Assembly (NCBI RefSeq): GCF_000346505.1 | Contig: NZ_ANOH01000306.1 | Coordinates: 1 to 63,317 of the forward strand | From: Aporhodopirellula sallentina SM41 | GTDB taxonomy: Bacteria > Planctomycetota > Planctomycetia > Pirellulales > Pirellulaceae | DNA length: 63,317 nucleotides | Reading direction: 5' to 3' | Shown: one piece after another, positions 11,407 through 47,300 of the stretch | Numbering within the stretch: the first letter of the stretch is position 1 | Layout: every line of letters starts with the position of its first letter | Notes under the pieces: generated by a model | The model's database searches: none | What the model saw: only the letters and a program-made list of their open reading frames with translations | What the model was told of the DNA's origin: nothing | Position numbers and translations under genes: made by a program

Positions 11407-12011
11407 TGGGAGTCTCCCCATAAATCCGATACTTCGAGAGCCTTTTCCTTCAGACGCTGCATCACACGAAACCTCGCCATGTAGACCGCACCGATGCTAC
11501 GGTCATGCCGCTTCGCGACTTCCGCCGCGGGTATCGAATCGATCGCGGTTTCGGCAAACATGGTCCACGTGAGTTCGGAGAATTCATCACGGATTTGCCG
11601 TGTAGCCCATCGCATCGCCTCCGCGTGAGTCTCGCGGTTGACTTCCATCTCAACAGCCGAGGCGTTTCCTGGAATCGAGTCAAGGATTTCGCCCACACAC
11701 GTCAAGCCGGACCCCGCATCGGGCTTCGCTCGCGACAGGACGTTGATGATTTGGTTCTTCGTAATTCGAATTAGCCACGCACGAAACGGCGGCTTGCGAG
11801 GATCAGGAACCCAACAATCGATCGCTTTGGAAATAGAAACGAAAACCTGTTGCGTGAGATCTTCAGCATCTGCATGTTGAATCCCTCGCTCGCGAGCCAT
11901 GCGGTACACGGCCGGGCGATAGATGTCCATGAAGGTCGACCAAGAATCGCTATCGGATCGGTTTTTAACCCGGGCGATCAAGTTGTCGTTCGTTTCAGGC
12001 CAGTCTTGCAT
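11403..12011 (-). CDS. ECF RNA polymerase sigma factor
   Basis: A 202-residue sigma-70 family ECF factor. Region 2 is at about residues 28-95 (DIYRPAVYRMARERGI, DAEDLTQQVFVSI, FRAWLIRITKNQIIN) and region 4 at about 140-192 (IDSIPAAEVAKRHDRS, AVYMARFRVMQRLKEK). It would direct RNA polymerase to a dedicated regulon. A strong AGGAG lies about 7 bases before the ATG. Its stop overlaps the start of the kinase gene, which carries an anti-sigma-like zinc finger. Length is normal for planctomycete ECF factors. No self-regulated promoter could be identified upstream. Confidence 0.93.
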   Translation of the reverse strand: MQDWPETNDNLIARVKNRSDSDSWSTFMDIYRPAVYRMARERGIQHADAEDLTQQVFVSISKAIDCWVPDPRKPPFRAWLIRITKNQIINVLSRAKPDAGSGLTCVGEILDSIPGNASAVEMEVNRETHAEAMRWATRQIRDEFSELTWTMFAETAIDSIPAAEVAKRHDRSIGAVYMARFRVMQRLKEKALEVSDLWGDSQ

Positions 12012-20100: not shown

Positions 20101-23100
20101 CATCACTCAGTTCACTACCGGACGGAATCGTGATGACCTGCGACGGTGCGTCCACGGTCAACATTGTCGGTGTACTGATCTGATCAACAATGTTGGCATC
20201 GTTGAATTGGACCTGAGCCCCAACGGCGGTTCCGCCGAAGCCGACCGCACGCAGTGCTTGCTCGAGACGTGTTGCGATGTCGGAGGCCAAATCACCATCG
20301 GCGAAGCGAACGGCGCGATCGATACCCTGTGAAGCCACTCCCGACGTATTGAACTCGATCGCAGCACGTTGCCCGTTATCCGCCGTCAGGATCAGGACTT
20401 CGCCGTTGATCAGGTCTTCAGCGTCGGGGACCGTGACGGCAAAGCTTGACACCTGAATCTGCGACGCAGCCGAAGTTCCTGCACCGAGCAAATCAGCAGC
20501 GGTAATCGTCAGCGACGTGTCCTCGCTCGTTCGACGTAGGCGATCGTAAGCGACAGGAGCGTCGTTCACAGGAGCAACGAAGATCGTCGAGGTCACCATC
20601 GAGGTTCGACCGTTGACGGTTCGAGTCCCGCGGGAGCCCGAATCGAAGACGTCCGCAACATCGGTTCCCTCATCAATGCCGCTATCCATCACGGTATAGA
20701 CGAACGTGATTTCCCCGTAGACGTCCGCCGCCGGAGTGAACGTGATCATCCCGGTCTGAGGATCGAGCGAGATTGATCCGCGACTGAGCGTATCTGGCGA
20801 CGCGTTATCCATCGCCACATCGATCACTCTCAGATTGCCATCGTTGGCGATCAAAGGATCAATTTCATCAATGGCACTCGCCGGTCCGGTTACATCGTTG
20901 TCCAGCAAGTAAGACGTTGGGAACACCAGAACGGAATCTTCCGTCGGAGTCGGACGGGTTGCCGGATTCGTGAAGAAGTTCAGGTAGCGAGTGTTCACAG
21001 CTCCTGTTTCGTCCGTCAATCCGACGTAATCGGTTGCCAGTTCCGGAGCATCGTTACGAGGAGTCACTCGAATCGTTGCCGTAGCAGTCGCTTCGGTCGC
21101 GGTGACCGGTTTTCGCAAGAACTGATCACGTTGCCCGCCGCTAATGAAGTACGGTGCGGCACTCAGATCATCCGAACCGAGGTTCAACGCGTTGAGGTTA
21201 TTATCCAGTTCTGTCGGCAGGACCGAGATTCCATCGTCCATCAAGGTGAACGTGAACTCTTCGAGCAACAACTGACCGAGTGCTCCCACGTCACTGTTGA
21301 AGTCTTCCGCCGGCGTGTAGAGAACACGAGTGATCCACTGCGGATTCGTATCGCTGTTGAACTCGGCGACCAATGTTCCACCGTGAACGGTCGTGATCGT
21401 ATCGACCGCTCCGCCGGCGGTGATCGTTCCGTTTACGGTCGCGATTGAGCGAATCAGGATGCTTTGGTTCGACTCGTCTTGTGGTGCACCCGTTTGGTTT
21501 GGATCGAAGTCTGGAACCGCCGAAGCGATCAGATCCGATGCGTCGATCGTCAGGGTCGGGTCCGGCCCGTTCGTTGTTGGCTCGAACGTGACAAACGTCT
21601 GATCGCTAGCTCCTGGATCGTCGTTGTCCGGCAGCACGTTGATCGTGACGGTTTCATACTCCACGTCATCGGTATCCACTCCGCCGGCATTCTGTTGTGT
21701 CGACAGGCGATAGCGGAATGTATCGACGCCGTAGAAGTCTTTCGCCGGAGTGTAGGTGAACGAACCGGTCAGATCGTCGCCCGCGGCGAGATCGACAACA
21801 AACAGTCCACCCTCGGGAGTCCGATAGACAAGCTGCGTTTCAGGGTACGCCGCACCGTTATCGTCGACCAAGATCCGCGGGAGGTCGACAAAGTAGCGGA
21901 CCGGCAGAATCTGCGAACCAAGGTTATCGTTGGTCAACAGAGTCTTGCTGTTAATGTCCAACGGTGGGTTCGCCGCAGACAGCGAGGCATCGATTCGCAG
22001 TGGAGTGTCCTCCAACGCGATGAATTGGTCACCGAGTCCCGATGGCAACGGAACTTCGACACGACGCACGCTGACAAGGTAATCCTCGACTTCGCCGCCG
22101 ATCGCGACACCGGTTGGGCTCGTGTTGCCCGAGTTGCTCAGACGGACACGCATCCACGTATCGATGTCGGCCACGTCGCTCGGGGTCATGATCGTCAACG
22201 TATTGAGTCCGTCGACAACCGGTTGATTGAACAAGACCTGCTCGGAAGTTCCGGCATCGAAAACGCCATTGCCGTTGAAGTCCACCCAAGCGTCGATCAG
22301 GCCGCCTCCGGTGACAAACACCTCGACATTCGTTCCAACCGGATCCGCCGGATTCAGGAAGCCAAAGACGCGGTCGGACTGCGACGCATCAAATGTCATT
22401 CCGTTGTCTTCGTAACTGCCGAAGAAGTACGCAGGAGGGTTCGAACCACCTTGATTGAACGTAATCACCGAAACACCGTCTTCGTCGTCGATGGCGGTCA
22501 GTGTGACCGTCGAAGCGTCGTTGGCGTCGATCTCACTGAGGATGCTGCCACCGAATTCCGACAGGCTCGATTGAACCACGTTCAACAACGCTTCGGCGAC
22601 CTCTTCGGTCGTGAAGGTTGGCTGAATCAGAACCGGGACACTCCCCGGACGCGGGTTCGACGCCGGATCAACAAACTCATAGGTTAGCGATCGATCCGCG
22701 GTACGAAGAACCAACAGTTGCCCCGGAACCGGCACGGCGGTGAACGTCACCGACAAAGAATTCGGGTTGGAATCATCGACGGTAAACCCGCCCGCAGTGA
22801 GCGCGGACTGCGTTTGAATGACAAACTCACGAGCCCGTGCTCCTCCGACGGAGACGGAATCCAATTCGATCTCATCGGATGCCGTCGCACTGATTGCCGC
22901 GTCGAGGTCAGTCTCAACGTTGGTGATGTGCGTTTGAATCGCCGCGAACAAGGACGCTGTCACGTCGTCGACGTCATCGCCCGAAGCGATCTCGACAGCA
23001 ACGCCAGGTCCATTGGCGGTCGCCCCTGCGTTGACGAACTCGAATTCGTAATCAGTCGATCCGATGAACGCACCCGGGTTCGCCGGATCCGGTGTCAACA

Positions 23101-26100
23101 CGGTGATTGTCACCACGTCGCCGATTCGCGGCATCGCGGTCACGGTGATTCGAGCGAACGTCGGCGTGATGACGTCGCCTGCCACCGAAGTCGCGCCGAC
23201 CGTCAGCACGTTGTCGTCGGAAACACCGATTCCGGAGCCGACCGGTTGACCGTCTGATTCGGTGTCGACGTATCGGCCCAATCGGCTCGACGAACCTCCG
23301 CTGACCGCATGGCGTGCACCATTGCCAGGGACGTAGTTCGCGTCGGAAGTATCCAATCCAGGCGTCGGCGATTGCAACAGCGTGCCATACTCGGCCGGTG
23401 CGTCGCCAAAGTCGAACCGTACATCCGGCATGATGATCGTGAAGCGAGTTTCGTTGTTCGGGCGAGTCGGATTGACAGGATTGCCTGCCAAATCGGAGAT
23501 CGCAAGAATCGTCTCGGCCGAGGTTTCAACGGCACCCACGCCGCCCCGCGTCACCACTTCCTGGGTGCCCGAGAGCAACAACACACCGCCGCCCGGCGAG
23601 AATACGTCCACTCCGATACCGGCTTCCGTGATCGCTTGCTGCACCTTCGTCGCAACCGACACGGCCGGGAACGAATCACTCGGCGTGAATTGAACCGGAA
23701 TCGCTCCGCCGCTAACACCACCAACCAGCAGTGCTTCACCGACGACTGCCGGACCAGGGACAATGTCGACCGTCGTGAAATCACTCCCTTGACCGGACGC
23801 GATTTCACCGAGCGTGATCACGTCGCCACTGCGTTGCACGTTCAATTCGTTTTCGAACGTGAGTGCAACTGCGGCTTCGAGTGCTTGAGCAATTTCGGTC
23901 GAATCGGCTGTCGGATCCACCACGACCGTGATGTTGGCTGACGTCAACTGAGGGTCGATCGTGAACAGGAACGTTTCGGTCTTGCTGCCAACACTGATCG
24001 TCACAGTGGTGCCGTCGATCGTCGATCCCGATTGGGTACCGGGGACGGTCACGTTCAACGAACTCGTAACGCCCGGTGTGCCCGTCAAAGACAACTCGGA
24101 ATCGAGCAAGTCGACAACGTCGCCTTCGAGACCACCAACCGATACCAATCCATTTCCGATTGAGATCGCACCGCTCAGGTCAATGTTCGACCCACGCAAC
24201 GCTGTCGCGATGGCATCCGCGATTTGATCTGGCGTGTCTGTGCGACTGAATTCGACGCGGCGACGGGTTGCGGTTTGATCGGCAGGATCAAACGAATCGT
24301 TTGAATCAAACTCAAACGTGATCGTCGTGTCGCCGCGGGTATAAGTGAACTCACCTCCGTCGACAACCGAATCGACCGTTCCGGTTTTGATCAGCCCGGA
24401 CGAAACATTTGCCATGTTGATCACATGTCCGGGCAACGGGGTGCTCGACTGGACCGCAGGCAAGGTTCCAAGCTGAATCGAATCGCTACCAACCGCAACC
24501 GGAGCCAAGCCGAGTAGAGTCGCGTAGTTAATTGCGTTCGGAGGACTATCGGCGAACTGCGACGGATCGAGAACACGCAGGATCGCGTCACGGACTTCCG
24601 TGACCGTTCCCGTTGCCGACAATGGAATCGCCACATTGGCACTGGCGACCGATCCAGTGGTGTTGATTTCAAACGTGTACGTCGTCAAACCGTTTCGCGA
24701 CGTGATCGAGAACGTGTCGGTGTCTTGGAAACCGTCCTTCGTGTCGGTCACGACGAACGTGTCGTTTTGCGGAACAGCGAGAGTGTACCCGCTATCAAAT
24801 TCGAGGACGGTTTCACGTCCCGTGTCATCGGTAACGACGACTTGATCGCCATCCGCGATGGAACCACCCGATTGCAGTTCGATCACACGACGTGCTTGGT
24901 TATTAAGCGTGATCTCATAAACGGCGTCTTGATTCCAAACACCGGACAGCGGCGTCAAGCGAATCGTGCGGCTGTTTTCACTGTAGCCAAACGTGAAATC
25001 ACGTCCCGGCAGCAGTTGCTCGCCGTTCTCGGTCATCAGGACCGTGTCGCCGTTGATCGTGTCGGCATCCAAACCGGTCCCCGCTTCGTCGATCAGCTGA
25101 ATCTCGAAATACTCAACGAACTGATCCGAGTTCACCAATCGAACAAACGATTGTTGCGGGTCGGTGTCGCCGGTCGTGTTCGGATCGGTTGGCGATCCGG
25201 CGGCCACTTCGTCCGGTGCATCAAATGGATTGTTGAGCACCGCGTTTGGACGTCGGAAGTCGGCACGGTCCACCGCACCACGGTCGATAAACGGATTCAA
25301 ACCAACACCGCCGGAAGGCGATCCTGCGATCCCGTCGACACGCGGTTGGCCGTAGATATCGAAACTCGGTGCCAAGATTGGCGACGACGCAATTCCGATC
25401 GGCGTCTTCACCGTGTCCACAAAGTCACTGCGATCGCTGAGCGAGTTAAGCGAATTGTCGATCAGCAAACTGCCTTCGGCCGGCAGATAGATCGACCGGG
25501 CTTCATCTTGGAAGACCGGATCGCCATCTGGAATTACGATCGATGTCGAACTCAACGGGAGAGTACTATCGACACCGTTGCGGGAGAAGACATTGCGTGC
25601 CGTCACCGTGCCACTGGCTTCCACCGTATCGACCTCGATGCCGGTGTCGGTGTCGACGATCACGTTGTTCATCAACGTCGGCGCGGCGCGGCCGCTCACT
25701 TCGATACCGATTCCCGCGGTGACAACCGTGTTGTTGACCACTCGGCTGAACAAATTCGGAGTACCGTACTCGCCGTTGTCATACGTACCGCCACCGATCT
25801 GAATTCCGACATTCCCCGACCGTTCAACGACGTTGTTGAAGATCACCGCACCTGGAATCAGGCTGCTCGGGTTCGCGTTTCGGGTCAGTCGAGCGCTACC
25901 TGGACGTGTCGAGTTGTCCTCGGCAATGCTCTGGGTGTAGCCACGGAATTGTGTTTGTTCGGCGTAGAAGGCTTGACCGGCTTCACCAATCACCGACGAG
26001 ATACCGACATCCGCTGAATCGCGAATGAAATTACCTTCAATGATCAATTGTCCTTGGTCGGAGACACGATTCTCATCAGTCTTTCCAAAGTGATAATCGA

Positions 26101-29100
26101 CCAGCAACACGTCGCGATCGGGAACGCCCGGATCTCCGGTCGGACGGACCGACATGAGGTACTCACCCGACTGAGCGTCCTCTGTCGAGAATGGTCCAGC
26201 GTCTCCCGCATAAGGTGCCGTGCTACTGATGATGATGTCATAGTAGCCGGACTTGACTGGGGTGAATTGCAGATTCGCACCCGCCTGCGTTTCACCGAAT
26301 CCAAACGTCGGTGCGGTGAAGTCCGATATGGCCGGACTGCCATCGGCCTGCTGTGCAAACGCAAAGTTGAGTTCAGAGAACGTGAACCGAGTGCCTTGTT
26401 CGACGATCGCCACAAACGGCAACTGCAAACCTTGCCCCACTCGGAACAAACCGGTGGTATCGACATCAATATCGATGCCCTTGCCGGCCTCGAGATAAAC
26501 GCGAACGGTATCAATATCGATTGTTGGTTCGGACCCAAGAATCGCCCCGTCATCGGCACCGGTGCTTGGCGGCACGCCAATATCGACTGCATCACCAATC
26601 TTTCCTGTCACAAACAGGGTATCGCCATTGACGTACCCTGGTACCGCTGCCTGGGCGAGTTCATCACTGTAGACGACATAGTCTACGGTCCCTGCGTCGT
26701 GATCGATCAATGAAACGCGACGACTCGTGTAGTTGCCGGCGAAGGTTTCCTCAGCAACCATGTCCAGCGTCATCGTGCGTCCGGATCCAGGATTGACGAA
26801 GATATCCGCAGAAACCAGTCGACGATTTCCATTGGCATCAAATCGGTATTCGTTTCCGAACAGTTCGACCCGACTCGACGAAGAAATACCACTATCGCGA
26901 CCATCTCCTGTTGCCGCGGTGATCGCAATCGAGTCCTGTGCCTGTTCGGAGTTGATGGCATCACGAATCTTCGCGGCAATTTGTTCGGCGGTGTCAGCCG
27001 GATCAAAGACAATCGGAACGTTTCCAGATCCGGTGGCAACTCCGGGCTGATAGCGACTATCAAACTCGAACGTCAGGCGGTCCGAGCCATCATCAAGCAC
27101 GAACGTATCACCGTCGATGAGGTCGACTCCAGCCGGTGCGACAATCGTCACAGCACCGTCGACCAAACGATCGTTCGTGTCGAAGGATCGACCAGCTGAA
27201 AATGTTTCATTGAGCAACAAATTGACCGGATCGTAGTCCTGAGGGACACCGTATTCATCAGCCGTCCGGATCTCCAGGGTATATCCCCCTACGAGGATTT
27301 CGTCAGGATTCTCAGGCTGGACGCTGTCAGGACGTGAATCCGGAGTGTAGGCAGGATCAAGAACGAAGTTGGAATTCCCTGCTGCGCTAAGGTAGTTGTC
27401 GTAGACGACTTCCTCGCCACGCTCGGCAAAGCCGACGATGATATCATCAATGTATACGCCAGAAACTTGGTTGTTTGATGCCGCTATCGTCGAGATATTC
27501 CCCGAACCGAAACCGGTCGGCAATCCGACACCAAACTCATCGCCAGGCATGCTCGTGTTATCTAACGTTTGATTAAGTCCAAACGTGCCTGGATCGGTAA
27601 CGGTTACATTAAAGAGCCGAATACGATCGCCACCGTAGATTTTAAAATTGTCCTCGGAAGCAACCAAAGACGCGTCGCCGTTGAACGAACTTGAGAACAG
27701 CTCAATTCGCCCGAGGCTCTCGGCGAGAGCCTGACGCAATCGCTCGGTGACCTCCGTGGTGTCCATCATCGCGTCCACGATGACCGGCACAGCCCGCGTG
27801 TCGTATGTGTTGACCGTTGTCGAGACGGTAGCTTCAAAGCTAACAATGCTCGAGGCCGATTCGAGTCGAATCGAAGATGCTTCCAAGACCAGGATTTCGC
27901 GTCCTGATGTTCCATGCTGTCGTGCTAGATAGGAAGCATCGATTGTCTGCAAGAACGCGTCGGCAACTTCCTGTGGGGTAAAGCCTGCTTGGTAATTGAT
28001 CGCGAATGGTGAAGTGTCTGCCGCATCGGTCGTGAAGTAATACGACTCACCAAAGCCGGTCGGGGCATCTTTCCGGAAGATGGTTAATGTCTCGCCATCA
28101 GTGATCTCGGATCCAGCCGGGAAGGTGACCGGGATCGCATACGTATTCGCTTCGTCAGCCGCGACAAACGTTACTGCGGGACTTTCAATGACGAAGGCGT
28201 TGGCAGCCGGACTATCCACACCGATTCCCGCTGGATTGGGTGCAGCCAGCAGAACCGCCTGTGACCCCGGACTGCGGTCGAGCAACTTGTCAACGATCTG
28301 CTGCGATACTTCTTCTGCCGTATCGGTTTCGTCGAAGAAGATTTGAATTCCGCCCGTATCGGCGACATTGCTACCGCGACGCACGAATGTCAATTCAACT
28401 CCCGGGCCGCCCCATCCGGATAGGAACACCGATTCGCCTGTCTTGAGATCGGCCGGTTCGGGAATCAAGAGCATAAACTGCGGGGTTCCGGTTTGGTCGA
28501 CCGCGAGCCGCGTTGCACTCGGCGTCACATTGACGCCAACGTTTCGATCATTGAAGACCAAATCGCCTTCGGAATTGATCGACGCTGCCCCCACTGGCAA
28601 CAGACTGAGAATCGTGGCCGCAACGTCCGCTTTCGTCTCGCCTGAGTCGAAGACGATTTCATCCGTTGCGCCGAGTGTGGCTTCCGTGCTACGAACAAAG
28701 GTCAGTGTGAACAGTGTCCCATCCAGATCGATGCTTAGCTCTTCACCCGTTGACGCTTGGTCACCCGAAGGAACCACGAGGCGAGTCAATGCGTCGTTAA
28801 CCAAAACCGGATTTGCCTGACCGATCTGGATCGATTCGTCGACTTGCACGTCAGTTGCCGCGAGGAACGAAACTCGTCCCAACCCGTTGGTACGCGGCTG
28901 CAACTCGCCGGGCATCGCTGCGGCGACTGCGGTCGCAACTTGGTCCCGAGTCATTCCCGGTTGATAACTGATCAGCACTTCCGGTCCGGTGGTGACGCCA
29001 TCCCCGAGGAACGCGATTTGGTCAGTGGCACCAGGAACCGCAACCGCCAAACCATCCAATGCGACCAGAAGCTCGGCCACAATATCGGCGGCCGCGTCGG

Positions 29101-32100
29101 TGCTTTCGTAGACGACTACACCGGGTTCAGAAAACAACGTTCCCGCGGAATTCTGTTCCAAGAACACAACCGAAGTGCCGCCCAATACCCCTTGATCAAA
29201 GAATAAGCTTTGGAAGGTGCTGATCGAAGCACCATCGGTCGCGGTGTAAACGATCGCATCAACCGGAGGAGCACCGATCGCGTCATTGAGCGGCGACGGA
29301 TCAACATCGGTCGCGATCGCCGTGGCGTCGAAGAACGCAATCGAGTTGCCTTCCACTACGGCATCAACATCGAGACTTAGGGCGTCACGGATAGCGAGTG
29401 CCAGATCCGCAGCACTGCTTTCAAACGCGTCACCACTGAATGCGACGGTTCCAGATATACCTGGACCACCGAAGCCGGCGAAACCGCCTGTGAATCCAAA
29501 ATCGACAAACTCAATTGTCGACGAACCGGTGGATGTTGTGACCGTGAGCGTCTGCCCGTCGACAATTTGCGAACCACTTGGGACCGTCATCCCGAGAAGC
29601 GAAACCGTACCGGTCGTTACCGGCGAACCACTGCTGATCGATGATGGAGCGGTCGAGTTTTGGAACCGAGCAACGACTTGGTTGCTACCCAGTGCTGCGG
29701 CCTCGGCAGCATTGGTAATCATGAACGCATCGCCGTCGTTCAGTTCACTTCCAGATGGGAAAACAACATCACGGCCAACGATGTTCTCGAGAATCACACT
29801 ATTGAAGTCATCACCCAGAATCACGGTCTGATCGCGATCAACGAGATCCTGCCCTGCCACGCCAACTAATTCGACGCTACCAAAGTGGGCCTGCATCGCA
29901 CCGGCGGTTGAGAAGTCAAACCGAATCCGGACGTTGCTGCTACCAGCAAGAGGTGACAAATCGGCGCGCACCTGACGCCATTGGTTCTCACCGTTGTCGT
30001 CGAACACCGTTTGAACCGGGATGCCGGTCTCGCTGTGATAATCGTACTCGTCGCTATTTGGCAACGAACGATACTCATCGTTGGTTGCCAACAGCCTCCA
30101 AACCCCATCGTCACCAGCACCGAACACTCGGAAACTGTCCCGCTGTGCTCGGTTTGGCGTGTAGTCGTCGTTGTCTTCGACCTCAAGGTGATAGCTGAAG
30201 TAGAGTGCCGGCTTGTCTTCCGAGGAATACTCCCGCAAATCGAACGGATCGGAAATGACACTTCCGTGACTACCACCCGGCGCGAGTTCGCCGAGAGGAT
30301 CTCCATCGGCACGCGAGAGAGTGTTAGTATCTTTCGAATTACCATTATCGATTTCAAACCCGAAGTAGAGGCTGCCACCACCGTTCGAATCTACCCGCGA
30401 TTGATCGTAATCGGTTTCTTGTCCGTGTCCGCCATCATCTCGACGATCAGTCGTTGAGTGCCACGGGTTCACTTCCAAATTGCTGAACGCGAGCCCAATT
30501 GGTGTTCGTCCCACCGACGCGCCCGTAATGTGACTAAGCTGAACCGCATAGCGACCTTCGTAGAACACCCTTGCCGGTTCGGTGGAGAACGTGCCGTCAT
30601 CGGCTTGCTCGAGCGTGAATGCATAGATCCAACCGTCATTAGTCGTCGCAAACAGCGTCTCACGGTAAGCTTGGTCTTCCACCGCCTGCGGCCCGAAGGT
30701 GACACTCGTAAAAATCGGCGTTGTTACGAAGTGATCCGGATGAGGCGTCACCGTTCCGTAGTAATCGGTCGGAATCACACGCTGATAACCCGCTGCCGTG
30801 CTGGTTAGGGGAGCATCCACGTTGTCGAATGGACTGAAAACATGAATTCCTCCCGCGTTAGTCGTCGCGACCAACGTGTTGAAGCTGTCGGGGAACGCGG
30901 CGATTCCCGAGATGTTTCCTCCGTCCGCACCTCGTGAGGCGTCAAACAATCCAGTGTCAACGATCCCAAATTCGACTTCATCGGAGGCGGGACCATAGAC
31001 GGTGTCATAAGGCGTCCCGTCCGCGAAGTCCCGATCGTTATCGTCGTTTGTACTTCCGCGGGATGTGATCTCACCGTCAATCGTAGCCGCTGAGTAAACA
31101 ATGTTATTTCGCAGCAATTGCGGAACCTCGCCCCCGCGACCGCCGTTATCACGGTTACCCACTACCCAGAACCGTTCGTTGTCGTTCACAGGGTTGTTGT
31201 TCAGCGTGGTGTTCCCATTGGATCGCGGAAACGCCAACGCCGTCACTAACAACTGAGCGTTCGGATCGGCCTCGACCGCACCGCCCGCTTCGTTGTTTCG
31301 CGAGAACGAAATCCCGTCGTCACCGTCATTGGTCGAGGCACCGTTGACGGGCGAGATATTGAGGTAGTTACCGGTGTTGCCATTGCTAGGTTGGTTGTTC
31401 GGAGGCAAGTTGTAGGTATACAACTCGCCGTCATCGCGAATCGCCATATTTGCAGTCGCCGGACCGAACTGGCCGATCAAACGTTCCATAGTCCCGGTGA
31501 ACGGGTTGAAGCTCGCCAGGGAGGTGGCATTGTTGCCCGAAATGCCTCCTTGATAGGAAACAAACAGTCGAATGTCGTCGAGGGTGTACGGAACGGGCGA
31601 CGCCTCACTGAACGCGGGTTCGAGAATCGGTCGCTCAGCAGTATCGTCAATAAACCGACTAACCAGTTCGACAGCTCCTTCGAAGGAATCTCGCGAGTAT
31701 GGTCGAATCGAATTGAGCGGACGCAGACGAACATTTGGGTCCGTAGCGTTCTGCTCAAAGAACTGATCCAATACCTCCGGCACGACCGCTTCACTGCTGA
31801 CGGCAACGTAGTAGGTGCCTTCGGGCAATTCGACAGGGCCGATGTAAGCGTCCGATGTACCGGCCGAGCCACCACTGAGGTTCGGCATGTCGATACCTTG
31901 TAACGGCCGCCCCTGATCGTCGGCCACGTTGCTATCGCGACTGACCAGAATCAATCGTCCCTGCGAATCGTAAACCGACAGGATCGTGTTCACCCGGGCT
32001 AATTCATCGGCATAGTCGATGTCGAACGTTGTGGTGACAAAACGATTCTCGCTATCGAACGTATCCGGCTCAATCTGCTGAGCGAACAAATCGACTTGAT

Positions 32101-35100: not shown

Positions 35101-38100
35101 TCGCGCTGAACGAAATCTCGTTGTAGATCAGCGTCGGTCGACTTTCATCGAGTTGGATTGCCGACACCGGGGTCTCCCGGACGCCTGTTCGACCACCGCC
35201 GTACCGAATGTCTGCGTGCGAGACATAGTCGAGGAAGATCCCGTCGTCTTCCCAGTTGCCGCGACCTTCGGAGTTATCGATATCGTTGCGGAATTCGATC
35301 CCTGCCCAATGTCCGGCCGATGGGTTCGTTTGCAGCGAATTGGTATCGAAACCGACACTCTCATCGTCATAACTCGTGAAGATGACAGAGGATCCCGGCG
35401 TACCGAGCACCTGCAACGCCGCCAACGATCGGTCTTCATCAACCGATTCACTACCGACCACGATCTTGGAATCGCGGAACTTCAAGAGTGCCCCGGCATC
35501 GATCATCACCGTGACGTTCTTGGGAATCTCAAAGGTCTGTCCGTCGGCGAGAATTGCGTTGCTGCTACCGCCACGTCCAAACTCGTAGGCCCGGTTATCG
35601 GACTGGGCAAGCTGCGCTTCATCGATTGTCGGCGTGGCCGGATCGTCCACCGCGGTGACCAACCCGTCGTCGCCCGCCGAAGGCAACAAACGCACGAGGT
35701 CACCAGGCTGAGCCGCATCGAGGGCACGCGAAACAGTACGGTACGGCGCGTCCAAACTTCCATCGCCCGCGTCGTTCCCGTCGGCGTCTTTCACCACAAA
35801 GATCGTTCGAGGTGTCGTTGCGGCGGCATCATCCGGAGCGACTTTGAACCAGAAATTGAAATCCCCACCGGCTTCGCCGTCCGCGTCACCGTCGAGTCGA
35901 GTTCCGTTGGCATCCACCAACGCGTTGGAACTGGCGACTCCGATTGAAGAATCAAACGTAACTCGCAGTTCATAGTTGCCTTCACTGCGACCGTCGTTCG
36001 CCGTGCCGGCTTGCTCACCGTCGTAAGATTCATTTCCGGTGCTGCTGACGCCGATAACGTAGTCACCTGCCGACAGATCAACCTCTAAGTACGAGTCATC
36101 GCCGAATGAGTCATCGTTGCGAGCGACCAACTCAAAATTGGATGTCCCCCCGACACCTTGCGTGACCCGGAACAATTGAATGGTCGTGTCGAGCAGGCTC
36201 GTGTCAGAAAGTCGCTGTGCAAACGTCTCGAGCGAAAGACGACCGAGGATCGCATCATCAGCAACGTTCTCACCGACAGGAGCATCGACAGAGAACGAGT
36301 AGAAATCGACATCGCTACTTTCGGGACGATGCAGCGCCTGACCGATCGTGATGTCACTCTGGCTGAGGAAGTCAGGTTCACTCGGCAACAGCGGGAAGCC
36401 GGACGCGTCGGTGCGGATGTCACCATCGGATCCGTCGCTGAAATTCCCATCGTTGCTGTAGATCTCGCTATTGGGTTCGTCCGGGCTGCTGCCGCCGGCC
36501 GCGACACCATCGGGCAGTTCAAAGAGGTTGCCGATCCCCAACAGGTTGCCGACTCCGCGGAGGGCTTCGACAAACCAACTCGGTCGGGCGTCGGGCGACA
36601 AACCGTAACCGTCGTACCAACCTTCATCGGCTTCCAAGACGAGAACGCCCCGCGACGGATCACGTTCGTTGACACGGTACAAACTATACGGAGTCCCTTC
36701 ACCGGCACCGGTATCGGCCGTTTGCTGAATCGCTCGCAAGTCACCGGTAACAATCTGCAGTCCGGAATCTTCCGTCTCGACGAACTTCACACCGAGGTGC
36801 TGTTCATAGAGATCGAAAATCTCTCGGGCACGTTCCTTTTGCGCCGACGTGATTGCTGTGTCGAGCGGTCGACCTTGTGCGTCGTTTCCGTAGAGAGTGG
36901 CAAAGTTATAGGGAAAGACGTTGATACCGGTGGTGGTATCAATGCGACCGACCATGCTGTCGTCGCGACGATACTCTCGCGAGCCCGGGGCTTCATACGC
37001 ACCCGGCCACGGTGGAACGTAGCTCCCCGAGTTTTGGATCGAACCGCCCTGCACCAAAACACTTTGGATACCGCCGGCAGGATCGAAACGAATCTCTTCC
37101 GTCTTCACCGTCTGGACCGGTCCAGCCACTGTCTCATCGATGACCACAACGTCGCTGCTGTCGAACGAATCATTGGACGGTACCGTCGTCGGGTTACCAC
37201 TCTCGTCGAGTGCCTCGGTTCCTTCCCCTGGTACTTGCAACACCGTCGGCGCGTCGGGCAACGCATCGCCACTGCCGACGCGCAAGCGGAACGTCCCCAC
37301 GCCGTCCGCGTTGCCGGTTAAAACAGACAGGTCATCGGAGAACCGAAGAATCGCCAATGCCTGCGTCGGATCATAAATCACCGTCTCGGGCTGCAGACGC
37401 AGATCGTCCGTGTTGTCGACCGTTTCCTCGGTCAGGAACAACTGATAGAACTCCGGCCGAACGACCGGCAGGGTCGACGTGGTTTGACCGGACTCCGGCG
37501 TCGCGCTGTTGGTGATCGTTCCCGCGCTCGGGTTGGAGAGCGGGTCGTTGTTGAAGTAAACGTGAACTTCGTTGCGCGCTTGGTCCCGATTTCCGGCGAC
37601 GCCCGAAACCGGTTGTGGAACGACGGCAACAACACGCGGACCAACTTCGACTTCGAAATCGATGTTCAACGACGGAGTCGCCGAATCGACTTGGTCGGCC
37701 GGCAAGATCGCGTTTCCGTCGGTGTCACGAAGCGCGGTGATGTTCGTGTTGATCGAACCGCCGTTGGCGAACACGTCGTTGTTATTGACGTCATCGTAAC
37801 CTGCGATCTGGATTCGGTACCGATCGTCCGGCAACGCCTCGACGAACCGTGAAACGACGACGCGGTCACCGACTTCATCATCGGCAAACCCTTGGAACCC
37901 CGGCTGAATCAGAAACTCGTTCCCGTCATCAAAAGTTCCATCCCCACCGGAACCAATGATGCGAATCCCACCGAGCGTTGATTCATCGAGCCGGGACGTG
38001 CCGTCAAATCGGAACGTCAACTCACGCGGTGCCGAGTCGAGTCGGTTTTCGGTACTCGTCCCATCGAGCCGGATCTGCGAATCCGCTCCCGCCTCGACAC

Positions 38101-38281: not shown

Positions 38282-38335
38282 GATGTGACCGAAGCCTTGG
38301 AAGAAATAAATCGGTGGGGGAATAGCTGACAGACT

Positions 38336-38367
38336 CGGACGGCAGTAAATCACTTCACTGCCGTCCG
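38336..38367. terminator. Stem-loop between the two giant genes
   Basis: Perfect 11-bp inverted repeat CGGACGGCAGT (38336-38346) / ACTGCCGTCCG (38357-38367), loop of 10. It begins 19 bases after the stop of the upstream giant gene and about 55 bases before the start of the next. No T-run follows on the minus strand, so it may be an RNA processing or stability hairpin, or a partial (leaky) terminator, not a classical rho-independent one. Confidence 0.55.
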
Positions 38368-38385
38368 CGGTGGGAATAACTCAGT

Positions 38386-41300
38386 TTAGTCCGTCTCGAA
38401 ACTGTCGGAAAACAGATCCAATAAGGCGGAATCAGTCGCCTGCCCGCTCGTTTCCGAGTCGGAGGTTGTCGACGATCCTAGATCAGAAGCCAGGGTATCG
38501 GCAACTTGCGCCGCCTTGGCCTCGCCTCCGGACTGGAGATCCATGCCCAAAGTCAACACTTGGTCGAGCGAGGTCGAAGGTTCTTGCTCGGTCGAGGAAG
38601 AATCCAACTCCGAGGATCGAAGGACGGCGTTTGCCGAACCAAGATTCGCGGTGGATCCACTCGCAAACGTCTGGGTCGACGCCAGCGAACTTTCAACGCC
38701 ACCCGTTGTGGCCGCCGAGACGGACACCGTGGTTGGTGCGATCGGTTCGCTCGAGCCGTTGTTGCCATTGGCATCGCGATCGTTGAGTTCGTTGATCACC
38801 TGCAACACGTCGACGGTGCTGATGAAACCATCACCGTTGACGTCGTAGTAGTCCGGCGGCGAGGTGGTCAGTTCGGACACACTGAACGCTGTCGTGTTGC
38901 TGCCGCGAGCATTGATCAGGTTCAAAATTCGCAACGCGTCGACCGCGGTAACGAATCCGTCCGCACTGACGTCATACCGTTCAACCGGGTTTTGATAACT
39001 GGATTGGTTGAACGTCACGTTGACAGTGATCGGAGCACTCAAGCGACCGGTATCGTCAATCAAACGGTACGTGAACGTGTCGGTCTGACCAGCGGCCGGT
39101 TGGCTGCCATCGACCGTTCCCGCGGTGAACGAGAACGCACCGTCATCACGACCGAGCAGATCGACCGTACCGGTTCCGCCCACAGGCTGAGTCAACGAGC
39201 CTGGTGCGATTCGGATCGATGAACCTGGATCTGGATCGAAGTCGTTTTGCAACAGTCCGAGCGACGGGTCGGTGATTCGCAACGTTCCGCCAACCGGCAC
39301 TGGGTAAGCATCGGGGCTAGCATCACCGCTCGGTGTGACGTTGCCACGAGGGGCGTCGGCGGTTGCCAAGACGACAAAGTCAAACGAGTGCGAATTGACG
39401 AACGTTCCATCGGTGGCTTCGATTTCAATCTGCACGCTGCCTGATTGATCAGGCTTCGGTGTGATTTGAAGGGTGTCACCCACGAATTCAATGGACTCAA
39501 CCAGCGGGTTCGCAGCGATCTGCTCGTCCGTCGGATTGTTGATCGAACCGATTCGGCGAACACGGTAGGTCAACACGTCCCCGTCCGGATCGAAGAACAA
39601 CCCTTGTCCGTCCACGGTATCGCGTTGCAGATCCGCAGTCGCTACACCGTCTTCAAGAATCTCGAGCGGTTGCAGGCTACCTGCCACGATCGGCGAATCG
39701 GGTTTACCCAGTACCGTCACGGTGATCTCTTGAGTAACCGCCGGACTGAGCGAGTCAGATGCTCTGACCGTCAGTGTCGTGGTTCCAAACGCGAACGGGA
39801 TGAAGTTCAACGTCAACTGATCTCCGTCGGTCGTCGCGGTAAACAGATCCGTATCGGCAACGGTCGGTTGTGGGAACGAAAGGACGTCTCCGTCGGCATC
39901 AGTGAACCACGATGTCAAATCGAACGTGACGCTCTCATCAGCGGCCCGACGCTCTTCGAACTCGAGGGTCGATTGGCCTTGCTGGCCACGAACGCCGAAG
40001 AACTCAGGCTGGTTGTTGACGCCACCGACGTTGATGAATGCCGTTGCCGTCGACTCGGCACCGAGCGAATCCACGACCACGTAGGTGAACCGGTCGATAC
40101 CGCTGAAGTTCACGCGAGGCGTGTATTCGAGGTAATCCCCGACCAACGCGATCCGTCCGCCGCCGCCTTCGGTCCGTCGTGATTGCACGATCTGACCGTT
40201 TTCGATCGACGTGAACTGATCCGCCTTCAAACTCCGTGTTTGATTTTGCGGAGCCTGCGTTTCGTCGTCTGGACCGGCGGTGTCGTTATCGAGGATACCG
40301 GCCACGGTTTGACCATCGATCACTTCCGGACCTTCGATCGGAATCCGCAAGACCGGATCACTGTCCGATGTTCGTTCGGTCGTTTGGTAGGTTTCGTCGT
40401 TAACGCGTGGGTTGTCATTGATCGCGTTGACCACGATCTCGACACGACCTTCCACGTCCGCCGATTGGCTGACGATGGTGCCCTGCAGGTCGCTCTTCAA
40501 GCGGTCGGCAACGGTGTAGGTGAACGTGTCGGCCACCTGACCGTTGTAATCCTGCGGCGGTGTGTAGAGGATCGTTTGACCGTTCGAACTGATCGTCAAC
40601 GATCCACCTTGAGTCGTTCGGAACGCTGTTGTCGCGGTACCGGCGGACAAGAAGAACAGATCCTGTTCGACCGGTTCCGTGCCTGGACCGGCACTGTAGA
40701 ACGGATCGATCAGTTCACTCGCGGTGAAGACAACCGGCCCGAGGCTGGTTTGATCAGCCTGACTGACCACGTTGTCTTCGTTGATCGTTCGGGTCGAGAT
40801 CACGTCGTCGGCGACCACACCATCGATCAACGTTGGTTCGTCGTTAACCGGCGTCACCGTGATCGTTGCCATAATCGGTGTCGGGCTGACCAATTGATTC
40901 TCAACGGCCCCCGGCACGACGTCGGTTACCAAAGCACTGAAGGTGACAACGCCGGAGTAATCGTCGTCGGCATCAAACGTAAACGTTCCGTTTCGTTGGA
41001 TCTCGAGAGTTCCCGCGAACTGGCCCGATTCGTCGAACAACTGACGCGTGCCGATGTCGTCCGCATAGATCTGAACACCACCAGGCGTCGCCGTGGTGAC
41101 TCCCACGAGCAACCCGTTGTTGTTGGTGAACGCATCGGTTCCGATGTCATCGGTCGCTTGCAGGAATTCACCTTCTCGAACGGTGTACTGCGGGTTCGGG
41201 GTGCTGATGACCGGCGGTTGCCCACCGACCAAACGGACTTTGTAGTCTTCCACCTCGCCGCTCAACGCCAACCCAACCGGCGAACCGGTGCCGTTGGTCG

Positions 41301-44300
41301 ACACGCGGAATCGTGCGTAGGTGTCGGCCGATTGACCGGCGAGCAGTTTCGCGGTCGTGTCCGGGATCGAAACGGCGAACGTTCGCGTCGTCGTGCCTTC
41401 TCCGAACAGAGCCGGATTGCTGGTTCCGTCGAACGGAAGGTCTGGCGAAATGATCAGTTCACCCGGATCGTTCCAATCGCCGTCGGCGTTGAAGTCGATC
41501 CATCCCTCGAGCACACCACTGCCGGTGACCGTGACGGTGACCTGAGTCGAGATACTCTCGTTGAAGAGACCTTCTGGGTTCGCTTCGCTCTCGAAGGTTA
41601 CCCCGTCCTCATCATTTCCAGAGATCACAAAGGTGACCAAACCGGAGGTCGGGTCGGTCTCGATGCTGGTACTCGCCGGGTTCAGCGGGCTCGCATCAAT
41701 TGCGTCTTGAATGCCGGCGGCAATCGCCTCCGGTGTCAACAACGATGAGTCCGCCGACGTCAGGACTCGATCCCCTTCATAACCTGGGACCCAAACGACG
41801 TAGTTGTCTTCATCGAAGATGCCATCGGTATCGAACTCAAACGTCGCAACGTCGAGGCCGGTGTCGACCGTGAACGTCTCGCCGTCGAAGAGAGTCAGGT
41901 CGAACAAGCCCGATGGGTCGATATCTACCTTCACCGCACCATCTTCGAGACGCGGTACAAAGACGCTGCCGCCACCGGTAAACGAGATCGTCAGATCGTC
42001 GCCATCGGCGGTCCGAACGGACAAGGCGTCGATCTCTGCATCAACACTCGATCCCAGAACGGGACCGGCACCGATGATGTGACGGGCACCGTTGTCGAGC
42101 AAACGAGTCGGATAGCGGCCCGGCACGGATCCAACAGGGTCCGGTGCGTCACCGAAGTCCAACGCGATGTCGGCGAGGTTGATCGTGAACTGCGTCGTAC
42201 GGTCGTCGCGATTCGGTTGCAACGGATTGCCGACGACATCTTTAATCGCGGGCAGGAAGTAGTTGCTGACAGGTCCGGTGATGATCGACGCGTTCTCAAC
42301 AAACAAGGTGTTGCCGCCGCGATCTTCCGCCACCAAAGTCGTCGTCGGCAACTCGCCGACAACGTTGACGCTGTTGAGCTGACGGAGCAAGACTTGTTTG
42401 ACAGCCTCGGCACCGAACAGCGGTGAAATCGCAACCGGGATCGCCCCACCGGGGACTCCCGTCACGTTCAACGTCGGTGCAGCCGAAATATCGACTTGGG
42501 TTCCAGGCAGATCGTTCAGGATCACGCCACCGGTCGGAATACCGTTCTCGTCCAATTCGGCGATCGGATAAACCGTTCCGTCTTCACCGGAGGTGAATCG
42601 CAATCCGGCACTGTTGTTTCGAATCGCCGCAGCAAGGCTCTCGGCGATGTCACCCGGTGTGCTCGTCGGCTGGAACGACACCTGTACATTGCCTGGCTGA
42701 ACCCCGCCGCCATTGTCGACCGAATCGAATTCGTAGGAAACCGAAACGTCACCTTGGCGGATTCGCAGAACTTCACCGTCGCTGACGATACCACGGACGA
42801 TGTCAATCGCCGGCGTACCGCTGACACCCGGCAGACCCGCGTTGCTGACGCGATCTGGCGATGTCCGGCCGAGAGAAATTTGACTGCTGTTCTGAATCGT
42901 TGCCGTCAGGCCAATCGTCGAGGCGTTGATCACCGCAGCGAACTTGGTTGCCAGAACATCTGGGTCATCCGCAGTGCTGTAGTTCACAATGTTGGCACCC
43001 TCTACGCGGTCCGCAAACGGGACGAAGCCGCCGATTGCGAACTGGAACACAACATCGTTGCCGTCGTCATCGGCGATCAAGAACACGCTACCGTTGGTGA
43101 TGCTGTTCCCGCCGAGAACCGGCATGGTCAACAGCAGAGGCCCGAAGACCTCAACCGTCGTGCTGCCGCTGACGCCCGGTTCACCACGCACTTCGAGCGA
43201 GCTTCCGAGCGTGACGGTCAACGCCAATGGGTTGTCCGCGTTCACGTTCACGGCAACCTGGCCCGGTGCAACCGTTTCGCTGCCCGGCAACAAACCGTCG
43301 ATCAACGTGATCGGGTTGCCCGCATTGTCGACCGGATTGAGCGCCGCTTCCACCTTCTCGGCGAGCTGCGTCGCGGTATCCGTCAACGAATACACGATCG
43401 CTCGGTTGCCCGGTGTCACGCCATCGCCGTTCGGATCGTCCTCGGTGCTCAGATCGAATTCGAACGTCACGCGTTCCTCGAACGTTGCCGTTTCGGTCAA
43501 ACCGATGCCGTTGAAGTCCGAAAGGATGCGAGCAGTCTTGCCCGCCGGAACGGTGAGATAAATGTATTCGTCTTGAGCAACCGGACTGACATCGATGCCA
43601 CGGTCTTCGATCGCCTGAGCGATGCGTCGAGCCAACTCATCGAGCGACACGAAGTATTCACGCAGCAGTCCGTTTTCATCTTCGATCGTTTCGGTCACAT
43701 CGATCGGGTAATTGCCCGGAGTGACTTCCGCCGGGTCGGCGTCGCTGACATCAAACTCGAAGTCATACAACTCCGGCAGGAGTTCGCCTTCACGCAGTTC
43801 CAGGGTGAAGACCGTTCCATCGATCGGCGTGTTGATCGTGCCAACCTCGAACCCGGCTGGGAACGCGTTGTTGATTTCGATCGCGGTCGATGGTGGCTCG
43901 GGAGCCTTGCTGACGCGAATCGTATCGCCGTCGAGCAGTGGTCGGGCCAAACCGATGACACGTAATTGACCGGCCGATGTCGTGACCAAACCGGTCGCCG
44001 GAAGGTCGAGATAGACCAGCTCACCGTCGACGGTCGGCGTCAAACCGAGACCCGCTTCCGTCACGGTTTCGCGAATCAGTTCCGCAATCTCTTCGCCGGT
44101 CAGATCACCCAATGTTGTATCGAGGAAGATCTGCGTCGCGTCGCTGTTTTGGACCTGAGCATCGAACGTGAACTCGAACGTCTGCTCAACGTTACCGTTG
44201 CTGATCGTGAACGAGTCGCCGTCCTCGATTCCGTTGACGCCGGTACCGATGGTCGGCACTTCGAAGGCCAACGTTCGAGCGTCTTGGCCGAGACCGCCAC

Positions 44301-47300
44301 CCGATGTGTCAACGATGTAACCAGCCGGTGCACCGAGGATCACTCGGGTACCGTCGATCACCACGTCGAAGTCGAACGCGGCGGCACGTGTTTCCGGTAG
44401 TTCGCCGGTTTCGCCGGCTTTGCGACGTTCCTGCGTGATTGCAGTTTCGATGCTCTCCGCGATCAGGCTCAGGTACGCCTCCCGTTCTTGCTGAGCGGTC
44501 GGCATGTTTCGAGCAGGCAGGCTGTCCAGTTGCAACGAAACACCGAGGGCAGGCGACGGTGCCGCACCGCTGGCGAACGAGTCTGGCTTGCTGTTGATCG
44601 TGATCGCCGGTCCGCCCGTGTTCCGCGTGATGTTCACCGTGCTGAGATCGTCATCGGGAACGTCAACGAACACTTCGAGTCCGTTGTTGGCGAACGTCTG
44701 CGTCATCACCTCAGCGAGCCCGAAGACAGAACCTTCGATCGGATCGGCCGGATTGAACGTGACCGGAATTGCCCCGCCCGTGGCCGAGTCGCCTTCGGCA
44801 ACGTATTGGAATACGAAGCTGTCCGTACCGACGGTGACATTCACTTCGTCGCCAACGAGCGATTCGGTCGGCAGCGAAATCCGGCGTGAGCCTGGCAACA
44901 ACACCCCGTCGTTATCGAATTCGAATACGACCGGATCGTTGGTGCCGTCGGAGATTAGGAAGATGTCGCCGTCACCCAGACCGCCCGCTTCGGTGCCGAT
45001 GCTCGGAACCACGAGAGTGGGAGTTTCAGGCAAGAACAACTGATAACCGGAATCGAATTCGAACACGACCGTTCCACCATCGGAATCAGTGATTCGAATT
45101 TGGTCGCCGTCGGTCACTTCGCTCGGATCGGGAGCGATCAAGACGGTCCGGTCACGATTGTTCAACGCGATCCGGTACGAACGATCATCTCGCCAAACTC
45201 CCGCGAGAGGAATCAACGTGATCGTGTTGCTTGTCTCGTCATAACTGAACGTGTAGTCGACGCCTTCTTCGAGCAACACATCGTTCTCGAAGACGGTCAG
45301 GTTGGCACCCTCACGGCGAAGACCTGGGATCTCCGCAACCATCAACGTGCTATCGTCCACACCGATGCCGGTGAACGGGTTCGATCCGTCTCCGGTATCG
45401 ACCAGTTGAATCCGGAATTCACCGAGGACACCAACTCCACGTTGAATAAACGAGGTCGTTGTATCGCTGTCCAACCCGGCGGCATCGTTGTCACGTGGGT
45501 TCAACGCAACAGCAACCGGACCGATGAAGTCCGCGAGTTCGGAACTACCGCGATCCTTGAAGATTGTCTGCCCTGATCCGCCCGACGAAGCAAAGTTCGG
45601 GTTGTCCGCACGCAGCACGCCGTTGACGTCTCGGTCCGGAGTCAGAACGTTGCTGATCGGCAAACCAACCGCAGCCTTGACCGACGAGAACGAACTGCGT
45701 TCATTCAGACTGCTCGTCGCACTGTCAATGATTCGAGAGCCGTCCGCCGGCAAGAAGTTGTCTCCTTCGGCATCCACCAACAAGACATCAGTCGGTTCGA
45801 TGAAGAAGTTGAAATCGTCCGACTGAACCGTGACGTTCGTCGCACCGATCACTTCGTCGGTCGAGATCGATGTGTCCACCACGTCAAACGGAGCGGTCGG
45901 GTCGATCGGCCATGTGATGTCGAATCGAATCTCGCTGTTACGCGTTTCGTCGTGCTGGAACACGTTTCCGTTGACGATCACTTCCTGCGGTTTGATGAAG
46001 TCGTTACCGGCAACCGCGACACGCTTACCAAACCCGAAGAAGTTGGTTTCATCAACCAGGATGCTTTGATGCAGGTTCGACAGCACGTTGTTGAGCAACG
46101 TCGGTGATGCACCGCCGGTAACCCAAATGCCGCTCTCAGCGATCAACTGGTCTGCGTTCTCTGCAAACTCCACGCGGTTATTGTTCTCGGAACTCGGACG
46201 ATAATCGTTCGTGCTCAGTTTCAATCCCGCGTTCATCGCCTCGGGACTCAGTTCGATCTCGGCGATGTTTTCAAACAGCACATACAACTCAGTCGATGCA
46301 AAACCGTCCGAGAGGGTGTTCGCAGGGGTGAGGGTGCTCGAGTTGTTTTCGACGCGGTCGTGACCGAATCCCAATGGGAAGTCGGTGTCGTTGAACAACG
46401 GATCCGATTGAATCGGGAACAATGTTCGCGTCTGTCCGGCACGACGACTCGGGTCGGAGAGGTTCACGATACCGAGGTTATCACCGCTCTGGCCGCCCAA
46501 GGCGGTCGCCCGTCCGCGAGCGATCGGCCCACTTCGGCCGTCCGGTCCGTTGCCATTTTCATAGTTCGGAAGCGCTGGAATATCCGCACCCGAGATCGGG
46601 TCTTGCAAACCAGTCACCGCACTGGCGATCGCATCCATGATTTCAGGAACACGATAGTTGGCGATCAGCGGAACGGCGTAGTTTCCATTCGCCAAAACAA
46701 TGACGTTTGCTTGGGTTGTGAACTCAAACGTCAACTGGTTTCCGACCGTCGTGGGAACGCCACCGCTGATCGGGAAGTTCGGCCAGTTACCGGCAAAATC
46801 AGGAATCTGCGTAACCGTGAAGGTTGTCCCCACGAGGTCGCTCGCCACCGTGCCGTCACGACGGCTTTGACCTTCGTTCCCGTCGTCGATGCTCATCACG
46901 AACTGACGCGGCGTGTAAACCTCAATTCCGATTTCGTACTCACCTGTTTCCGTACCACCGACGCGACCGGAGAGACTGTTCGGATCGTAGGATGAGTTCC
47001 CGACCGAACTGACCGCGATGTAATACGTCCCAGTCTCCAAGGTCGTGAAATCGACAAACGGGTCACGACCGTTCAATTCATCCGTAACCGAGCCTGCCCG
47101 ACCGGTTCCGGTAAAGACAGTCGAACGTGGATCGAGGTAATCAGGAGCGGCACCGTTGTCCGCCACCTTGGTTTCGTTGGGTGCACCGAGATTGAGCACT
47201 TGTGCCTGACCAAACTCATCGAAGATCCGCACAATCGTGTCCGGTCCGCCCTCAATCGTGTCGATGTCCACAATCAAGCGATCACCAACGATCAGTTCGA

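Follow-up and report, generated by a model that had tools for sequence, protein, structure and literature searches.

The window analysed here is a stretch of 63,317 nucleotides (nt) from the planctomycete Aporhodopirellula sallentina SM41 (contig NZ_ANOH01000306.1 of assembly GCF_000346505.1). It contains two adjoining giant genes on the reverse strand that encode the paralogous proteins p1 and p2. GEVED, cadherin/Big_9 repeats, and a C-terminal dockerin are common to both proteins, and both carry many copies of a module of about 95 residues, here called FEF. Judged by sequence comparison, copies of FEF lie within other domains and also within copies of FEF, and this insertion of the module into itself is the most striking feature of the two genes, which a first-pass annotation of the window had overlooked. 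For p1, the ATG at 38281 is a likelier start than the GTG, as judged from the start in congeners. The planctomycete extracellular N-terminal motif scores 20.5 and 25.2 bits in the two giants, both below its cut-off of 25.5, and PPC-like and beta-helix matches in p2 are likewise below their cut-offs. The nearest of 12 congeners is Rhodopirellula rubra (G003) with 86% identity in p1 and 88% in p2. Further genomes compared include Aporhodopirellula aestuarii (G009), Neorhodopirellula pilleata (G011), R. europaea (G007), and a set of six (G002, G004, G005, G007, G010, and G012), which we take to be the R. baltica group; G000 is the window's own genome.

The first-pass annotation had counted at least 15 copies of the module in p1 and about 13 in p2 and had placed them between 22490 and 45100. 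A hidden Markov model (HMM) seeded with 11 copies and then iterated on both proteins recognizes 34 copies, 21 in p1 and 13 in p2, which bears out their abundance. The range was too narrow: 25 of the 34 copies lie within it (two of them cut at its ends), while five among the best-scoring copies (18923-20437) and four p2 copies (46573-54837) lie outside. The lowest accepted copy has 14.8 bits, compared with control maxima of 6.7 bits in 100 shuffled and 7.3 bits in two reversed proteins. Because the iterated HMM was trained partly on the copies that it scored and is to that extent circular, a seed-only model was also applied. With this model, 18 of 23 non-seed copies score above the best control (6.2 bits), so that 29 of all 34 copies clear the controls; the other five are found in p1 at amino acids (aa) 3039, 3503, and 4870 and in p2 at aa 3171 and 3732, the copy at p1 aa 4870 being the closing back half at the immunoglobulin-like (Ig) site described below. 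The copies are diverged: in an alignment of 18 of them, identities to the first copy range from 19-36%, and the mean column identity is 25%.

At an expectation value (E) of 1e-5 the module is present in 39 of 60 genomes of relatives, and it occurs in 15 of 294 genomes drawn across the phylum, the window's own genome being included in both sets. In some distant members, the module occurs as a single unit in frames of 955-1,847 aa. In the window genome, another FEF-bearing giant with a frame of 5,651 aa lies on contig C407 near 58283-65284.

The Ig site and nesting of the module in itself

The best-studied insertion site lies in a Big_5-like Ig host domain, whose two halves are separated by FEF units in both p1 and p2. 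A search for the first host half in 37 genomes, mostly chosen as module carriers, gave 64 places in 31 genomes, of which 60 were fetched; the other four comprise the two places in the window and the two of lowest score. Adding the two window genes and five rows of orthologues, of which one is a duplicate, gives a total of 67 rows, with ten loci read in a corrected reading frame. The site is empty in 22 rows (2-20 aa between the host halves), holds a single unit of 101 aa in one row, and opens with a front half and closes with a back half of the unit in 29 rows. A front half without a called back half was found in nine rows, a back half without a called front half in three, and neither in two; one row is undecided, its second host half not being found. 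The site thus presents a series of states, from an empty site through a single unit and a unit split by another to two, three, five or more units, and the length between the host halves grows by about 109 aa per unit (intercept 2 aa, r 0.985, 37 rows). For this fit, counts were entered by hand, missing half-calls were filled in, and six long or irregular rows were omitted; one locus (L144) is perhaps over-counted. Different states also occur at the same gene position, beside p2-type genes: the site is empty with a remainder of 12 aa in G025, has one unit in G035 and one nested unit in G022, and has three nested units in G023 and in the genus. The empty site of G025 (L158) lies inside a nested clade, and the approximately 12 aa that it retains (EDALQSDGTTIR) may be left over from an array that was deleted.

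The window genome itself has an empty copy of the site (L178); contig C258 carries a paralogue whose Ig site is empty. Two empty copies were scanned against Big_5 (PF13205): L168 reached 28.6 bits and exceeded the cut-off of 23.6, and L178 stayed just under it with 22.7 bits. Big_5 is accordingly the name of the host at this site and not of the module. In the Pfam scan of the giants, the interrupted Ig hosts are not reported as Big_5, as if a different domain were present. This is what would be expected if the FEF strands were integral parts of larger, so far unnamed host domains and not insertions, an explanation to which we give almost no credence: 22 of the 67 rows have the host without FEF, two such copies resemble Big_5, and further empty sites are found between the window paralogues, at a Big_9 site of N. 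pilleata, and in the segment before GEVED (see below). The earlier statement that the copies interrupt other domains is therefore upheld by empty sites in paralogues as well as in relatives.

Nesting was assessed by counting half units at the Ig site. At 4 bits, 42 loci have at least two FEF matches. In 37 of them the first match is a front half (model end at position 50 or earlier), and none of these 37 has 70% or more of the space that the missing rest would require. A back half closes 31 loci, and room for its front is present in one of them (L183). As chance matches occur at 4 bits, the count was redone at 10 bits, a threshold reached by one control match (10.1 bits). Among 41 loci with at least two matches, there are 33 front halves and 23 closing back halves, with room for the missing part in 0/33 and 0/23, respectively, and both halves are present in 20 loci.

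The clearest nest is located in p2 at aa 4312-4560, where a complete unit of 122 aa stands between the fourth strand and the helix of its host unit. It is carried by five of 18 aligned rows (the window species, R. rubra, A. aestuarii, G006, and G008), in which the region spans 248-249 aa. In the other 13 rows, comprising N. pilleata, the six genomes of the presumed R. baltica group, and six rows from other genera, the orthologous unit is whole and has 105-141 aa. The five carriers are united in a single clade (support 1.000), which means that the nested unit was gained once, and the direction of this gain can be read. The best non-orthologous matches to the nested unit are the p1 units before GEVED (E about 6e-5 to 1e-4), which are too weak to name them as its donor.

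Units that are nested in sequence could be folded as a domain-swapped chain, in which each front half pairs with the next back half. Opening front halves and closing back halves are predicted by swapping and by nesting alike, and a domain swap has been reported for some recursively inserted HABAS (barrel-sandwich hybrid) domains in PMC11515920. However, the newly nested p2 unit has a whole orthologue in 13 of 18 rows, which shows that its host's two halves were one unit, and in the low-confidence model of the nested region the outer halves are the best-predicted parts, which is weak evidence in the same direction. Swapping therefore appears unlikely to us.

Other insertion sites and apparent movement between genes

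Besides the Ig site, several places in p1 and p2 contain FEF units (Table 1). At sites A and B, the two proteins serve as each other's empty sites within the window. At the third place, in front of GEVED, the host is the segment from FGDA to DDEDG. A location of the two p1 copies inside the GEVED domain itself was ruled out, since Pfam places GEVED at p1 aa 5354-5427, after both units. The length of this segment, measurable in 18 of 66 rows, increases in steps: 50-54 aa without FEF (four rows), 160-180 aa with one unit (eight rows), 283-307 aa with two (four rows), and 469 aa with three (one row). One row (L187) lies outside this pattern with 209 aa and no FEF. The first of the two p1 units (22796-23068) is missing in 7 of 13 rows. 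At the cadherin site of p1, Pfam reports only positions 2-46 of the 71 positions of Cadherin_4, and this match ends where the five FEF units start.

Table 1. Positions of the giant genes, host segments, and FEF units in the window
Feature	Position	Strand	Remarks
Giant 1 (p1)	14168..38353	-	8061 aa from GTG; Cadherin/Big_9 repeats, GEVED, C-terminal dockerin
Five head-to-tail FEF units, p1	18923..20437	-	Cadherin site
Two FEF units, p1, in FGDAP...DDEDGV segment	22460..23068	-	Just before GEVED
Ig host, second half, p1	23396..23500	-	ISDLAGNP...FTI
Outermost FEF unit, back half, p1	23501..23722	-	Seed-only model not above controls
Three complete FEF units, p1	23723..24763	-	Nested within outermost unit
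Outermost FEF unit, front half, p1	24764..24892	-	Ig site
Ig host, first half, p1	24893..25159	-	Big_5-like
FEF unit, p1	26864..27145	-	Place common with p2 48952-49224, by eye
Site B, p1 (aa 2833-3632)	27458..29857	-	About 800 aa, eight FEF matches; paralogous p2 place empty; host unnamed by Pfam
Giant 2 (p2)	38386..57951	-	6521 aa; p1 paralogue of similar architecture
One FEF unit, p2, in FGDAP...DDEDGV segment	41578..41898	-	Before GEVED
Ig host, second half, p2	42142..42246	-	IKDVVGNP...FTI
Outermost FEF unit, back half, p2	42247..42459	-	Weak: 10 bits, orthologue model
Five further complete FEF units, p2	42460..44271	-	Within outermost unit
Second-level FEF unit, back half, p2	44272..44496	-	
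Complete FEF unit, p2	44497..44862	-	Within second-level unit; in 5/18 aligned rows
Second-level FEF unit, front half, p2	44863..45018	-	
Outermost FEF unit, front half, p2	45025..45150	-	
Ig host, first half, p2	45151..45459	-	
Weak FEF-like copy, p2	46573..46758	-	20.7 bits; seed-only model not above controls
Weak FEF-like copy, p2	48154..48441	-	14.8 bits; seed-only model not above controls
FEF unit, p2	48952..49224	-	Place common with p1 26864-27145, by eye
Site A, one FEF unit, p2 (aa 1031-1140)	54532..54861	-	Paralogous p1 place empty

Evidence for a transfer between genes comes from N. pilleata. Its p1 contains a unit of 115 aa inside a domain that in the window is a Big_9 above cut-off. 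This insert is missing in all 11 other aligned rows, in which the flanks are otherwise continuous; the alignment excludes G001, whose p1 has no such region. Among 561 unit sequences, some of them duplicated, the insert is closest to a unit of the strain's own p2 at aa 4594, about 28 kilobases (kb) away; the match has 72.9 bits (63.5 for the next) and spans 111 residues, linker included, at 43% identity. In a tree of 89 units, it groups with nine orthologues of p2 unit 5 (support 0.961). By these sequence relationships, FEF copies appear to move between giant genes. Losses have also occurred. At site B, R. rubra carries three units more than the window strain, where the corresponding cuts lie within linkers; since about 300 residues are likewise present at this place in G001, G009, and G011, the absence represents a loss in the window strain. 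Losses thus respect unit boundaries as well.

Ordinary tandem arrays that change by unequal crossing-over, the half units being badly conserved array ends, would account for the cadherin site, where five units follow each other head to tail and one of them is missing in G006 and G008, and for the three units by which the window strain falls short of R. rubra. As a general explanation they are improbable. The half units at the Ig site leave no room for their missing parts at 10 bits, an uninterrupted unit exists beside its interrupted orthologue, and the insert in N. pilleata p1 is alone in its domain, 28 kb from its closest relative. In addition, it can be argued that in-register crossing-over cannot produce an order of front halves, full units, and back halves (N-N-C-C).

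Another explanation would be mobile DNA that enters genes in frame, in the manner of the palindromic elements of Rickettsia. In-frame, unit-sized gains in new hosts would fit such an element. However, Tandem Repeats Finder detected no DNA-level tandem repeats in the two giant genes, inverted repeats of 16-28 nt in the two arrays examined do not regularly frame units, and copies resemble each other in protein pattern and not in DNA, the best DNA stretch of the clearest donor-recipient pair having 77% identity over 57 bases. A mobile element is therefore a very remote prospect. Fresh near-identical copies within one protein are likewise missing; the best pair has 52% identity over 69 residues, so that no fresh duplication reveals the DNA mechanism. 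At 44914-45071, codons of the FEF motif include 20 bases that are 95% identical between two p2 copies and contain the palindrome TCGAATTCGA. A role of this conserved stretch as a seed for recombination through microhomology is possible. A tblastn query covering four of the five tandem units had no match in phage or plasmid records.

The two proteins may contain an insertional module other than FEF. A PPC-like domain of p2 is split by a different module of about 128 aa (GNGARIDFV type; 55183-55566), and the paralogous domain of p1 is without it. A second segment of p2 (56629-56913) resembles this type by eye (GASGQQVRFV...). In addition, a p2 segment of 118 aa without FEF match (aa 3394-3511; 47419-47772) is present in five of 12 p2 orthologues and missing from seven. 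In G001, no p2-like frame of at least 1,500 aa stands beside p1 within 48 kb around p1 (L065-L067), and its p1 lacks long stretches of the C-terminal repeats. Other genes of the window are a protein kinase with an N-terminal zf-HC2 (9412-12011), beside a sigma-70 region 2 protein and near the giants, and a phage-type integrase (1281-2585) close to the window end.

Fold and relation to known families

A single-copy AlphaFold2 model, built from 58 copies (those of the window and of loci L097-L101), is compact, with a predicted local distance difference test (pLDDT) score of 84.5 and a predicted template modelling (pTM) score of 0.77. This prediction agrees with the first-pass annotation, which had proposed an independently folding unit. 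The model contains strands at 4-8, 18-24, 29-35, and 46-49, a helix at 56-69, and further strands at 74-77, 87-91, and 94-99, and the FEF position, VEF in the modelled copy, lies in strand 29-35.

The first-pass annotation had also assigned FEF to no named domain. This holds insofar as no library clearly matches all copies; it is qualified by one congener copy, located before GEVED in G006, which matches Flagellin_IN (PF07196) with 27.6 bits and passes the Pfam cut-off of 22.7. Of the 58 copies, five match this family at E up to 1 (best 4.4e-4) and 53 do not. Flagellin_IN matches above cut-off also occur within the giants of G022 and G023, at places that may or may not be FEF units. The modelled copy matches DUF1344 (E 3.9e-4, 20.6 bits) below the family cut-off of 23.1, and NCBIfam and PHROGs gave scattered weak matches only. 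A sequence search of solved structures yielded 25 sequences (E 0.0008-0.85), among them ribosomal L6, a designed protein, and tail sheaths, which were not accepted as homology.

Foldseek with the single-copy model found nothing below E 0.001. The top match is a flagellar cap-complex chain from the Campylobacter hook-filament-cap (E 0.048, template modelling (TM) score 0.37); the top rows also include a phage Mu chain and a Vibrio flagellin. Likeness to phage sheath or baseplate proteins is seen with 9ki1_1 (probability 0.95, TM 0.54) and with five phage models of BFVD (probability 1.00, TM 0.55-0.62). From the predicted model, we read FEF as having a fold common to flagellar and phage sheath or baseplate domains; common descent, including descent from Flagellin_IN, is unproven. 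The likeness to phage tail sheath and baseplate J-like proteins stays at the level of the fold, and FEF differs from them in context and in the missing tblastn match of four tandem units in phage records.

If FEF were simply the known Flagellin_IN family, it would be nothing new in kind. The five matching copies, the congener copy above cut-off, and the Campylobacter and Vibrio structures are in favour of this. The strand-helix-strand core of the model appears to be common to FEF and to Flagellin_IN, flagellin, and FliD. By contrast, most copies have no match, profile-profile comparison gave a probability of only 8.6-17.4%, with one of 20 column-shuffled controls reaching 17.5%, and FEF has extra front strands by eye, including the FEF strand, and resides in giant secreted proteins. 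We consider a plain identity with Flagellin_IN rather doubtful. Because one congener copy passes the Pfam cut-off, FEF may be a distant branch of this known superfamily.

Insertion as a probable mode of growth

FEF is probably a small domain of secreted proteins that acts as an insertional module, whole units with their linker entering loops of host domains in frame. Its predicted strand order is β-β-β-β-α-β-β with a flagellin- and phage-sheath-like fold. The hosts would be Big_5 Ig-like and Big_9/cadherin-like domains, the segment before GEVED, and the unnamed host of site B, and two loops of FEF itself would serve as acceptors, one after the FEF strand (Ig site) and one before the helix (p2 nest). 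Insertion would be tolerated and repeatable because the inserted unit leaves the host halves able to come together around it. The two parts of a split unit would form a single domain despite the insert. The inserted units of these secreted, dockerin-bearing giants would project as side arms of the surface protein and alter its reach and binding surface, perhaps in an adhesive role, and the main chain would not be lengthened. Copying could proceed through ordinary recombination and would need no dedicated enzyme. The wider proposal, in which this domain family spreads by copying inside and between adjacent giant genes, is accepted at a few permissive loops, and nests in itself, so that surface proteins grow branched and not linear, has in our judgement a somewhat less than even chance of being correct.

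Several observations weigh against these proposals. The five copies at the cadherin site stand plainly head to tail, and unequal crossing-over explains them equally well. In the Ig host tree, empty sites branch off at the base and again between nested ones; the direction at this site is therefore mixed, and some empty sites are probably losses. The N. pilleata p1 insert branches as the sister of the entire set of p2 unit-5 copies and does not adjoin the copy of its own genome. No DNA signature of an insertion mechanism was seen, the two arrays examined having short inverted repeats only. In the half-unit count at 4 bits, the 102,002 residues searched gave 27 chance matches when reversed and three when shuffled, with maxima of 8.6 and 10.1 bits, respectively, and the back halves are the weaker ones, decreasing from 31 at 4 bits to 23 at 10 bits. 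Finally, the model of the nested p2 region is poor (pLDDT 55.2, pTM 0.48). The earlier suggestion that the module spreads inside giant genes by insertion is consequently retained for the past, on the basis of the empty sites and of two events with readable direction, but not for the present, since identities of 19-36% indicate that the copies are old and that FEF is not a currently spreading element.

The nearest precedent for self-nesting is the HABAS domain. According to PMC11515920, HABAS domains are inserted into HABAS domains in Si3 of the RNA polymerase beta-prime subunit, where copy number and not place varies by lineage, and six levels of nesting are counted in PMC13114784. Like FEF, HABAS is a small domain that lies within other domains and within its own copies, at a fixed place and in lineage-variable number; the likeness is one of insertion pattern. 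In contrast to FEF, HABAS resides in a housekeeping enzyme, with insertions dated to the deep past in PMC11515920. For FEF, the empty, single, and nested states can all still be found within one bacterial family, and one of the nestings is restricted to a clade inside one genus. The two giants belong to the class of giant genes described for all 29 Planctomycetes genomes examined in PMC5177795, the accessible part of which describes no FEF-like internal module, and one giant gene of R. baltica is mentioned in PMC2754498. A literature search found no account of the FEF module, which is a weak absence, as subscription journals lie mostly outside its coverage.

These results address the question how bacterial genes reach 20-25 kb while their proteins stay foldable during growth. 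At the Ig site, the states preserved in living bacteria, with none, one, one split by one, two, three, and five units, make growth readable, and unit-sized gains and losses are seen inside one genus. The giants thereby offer a natural system for studying domain insertion and permissive insertion sites, and the interruption of hosts explains why domain libraries miss them in such proteins. If the proposed reading is true, FEF would be a further self-nesting domain beside HABAS, with the intermediates of the process still present in living relatives.

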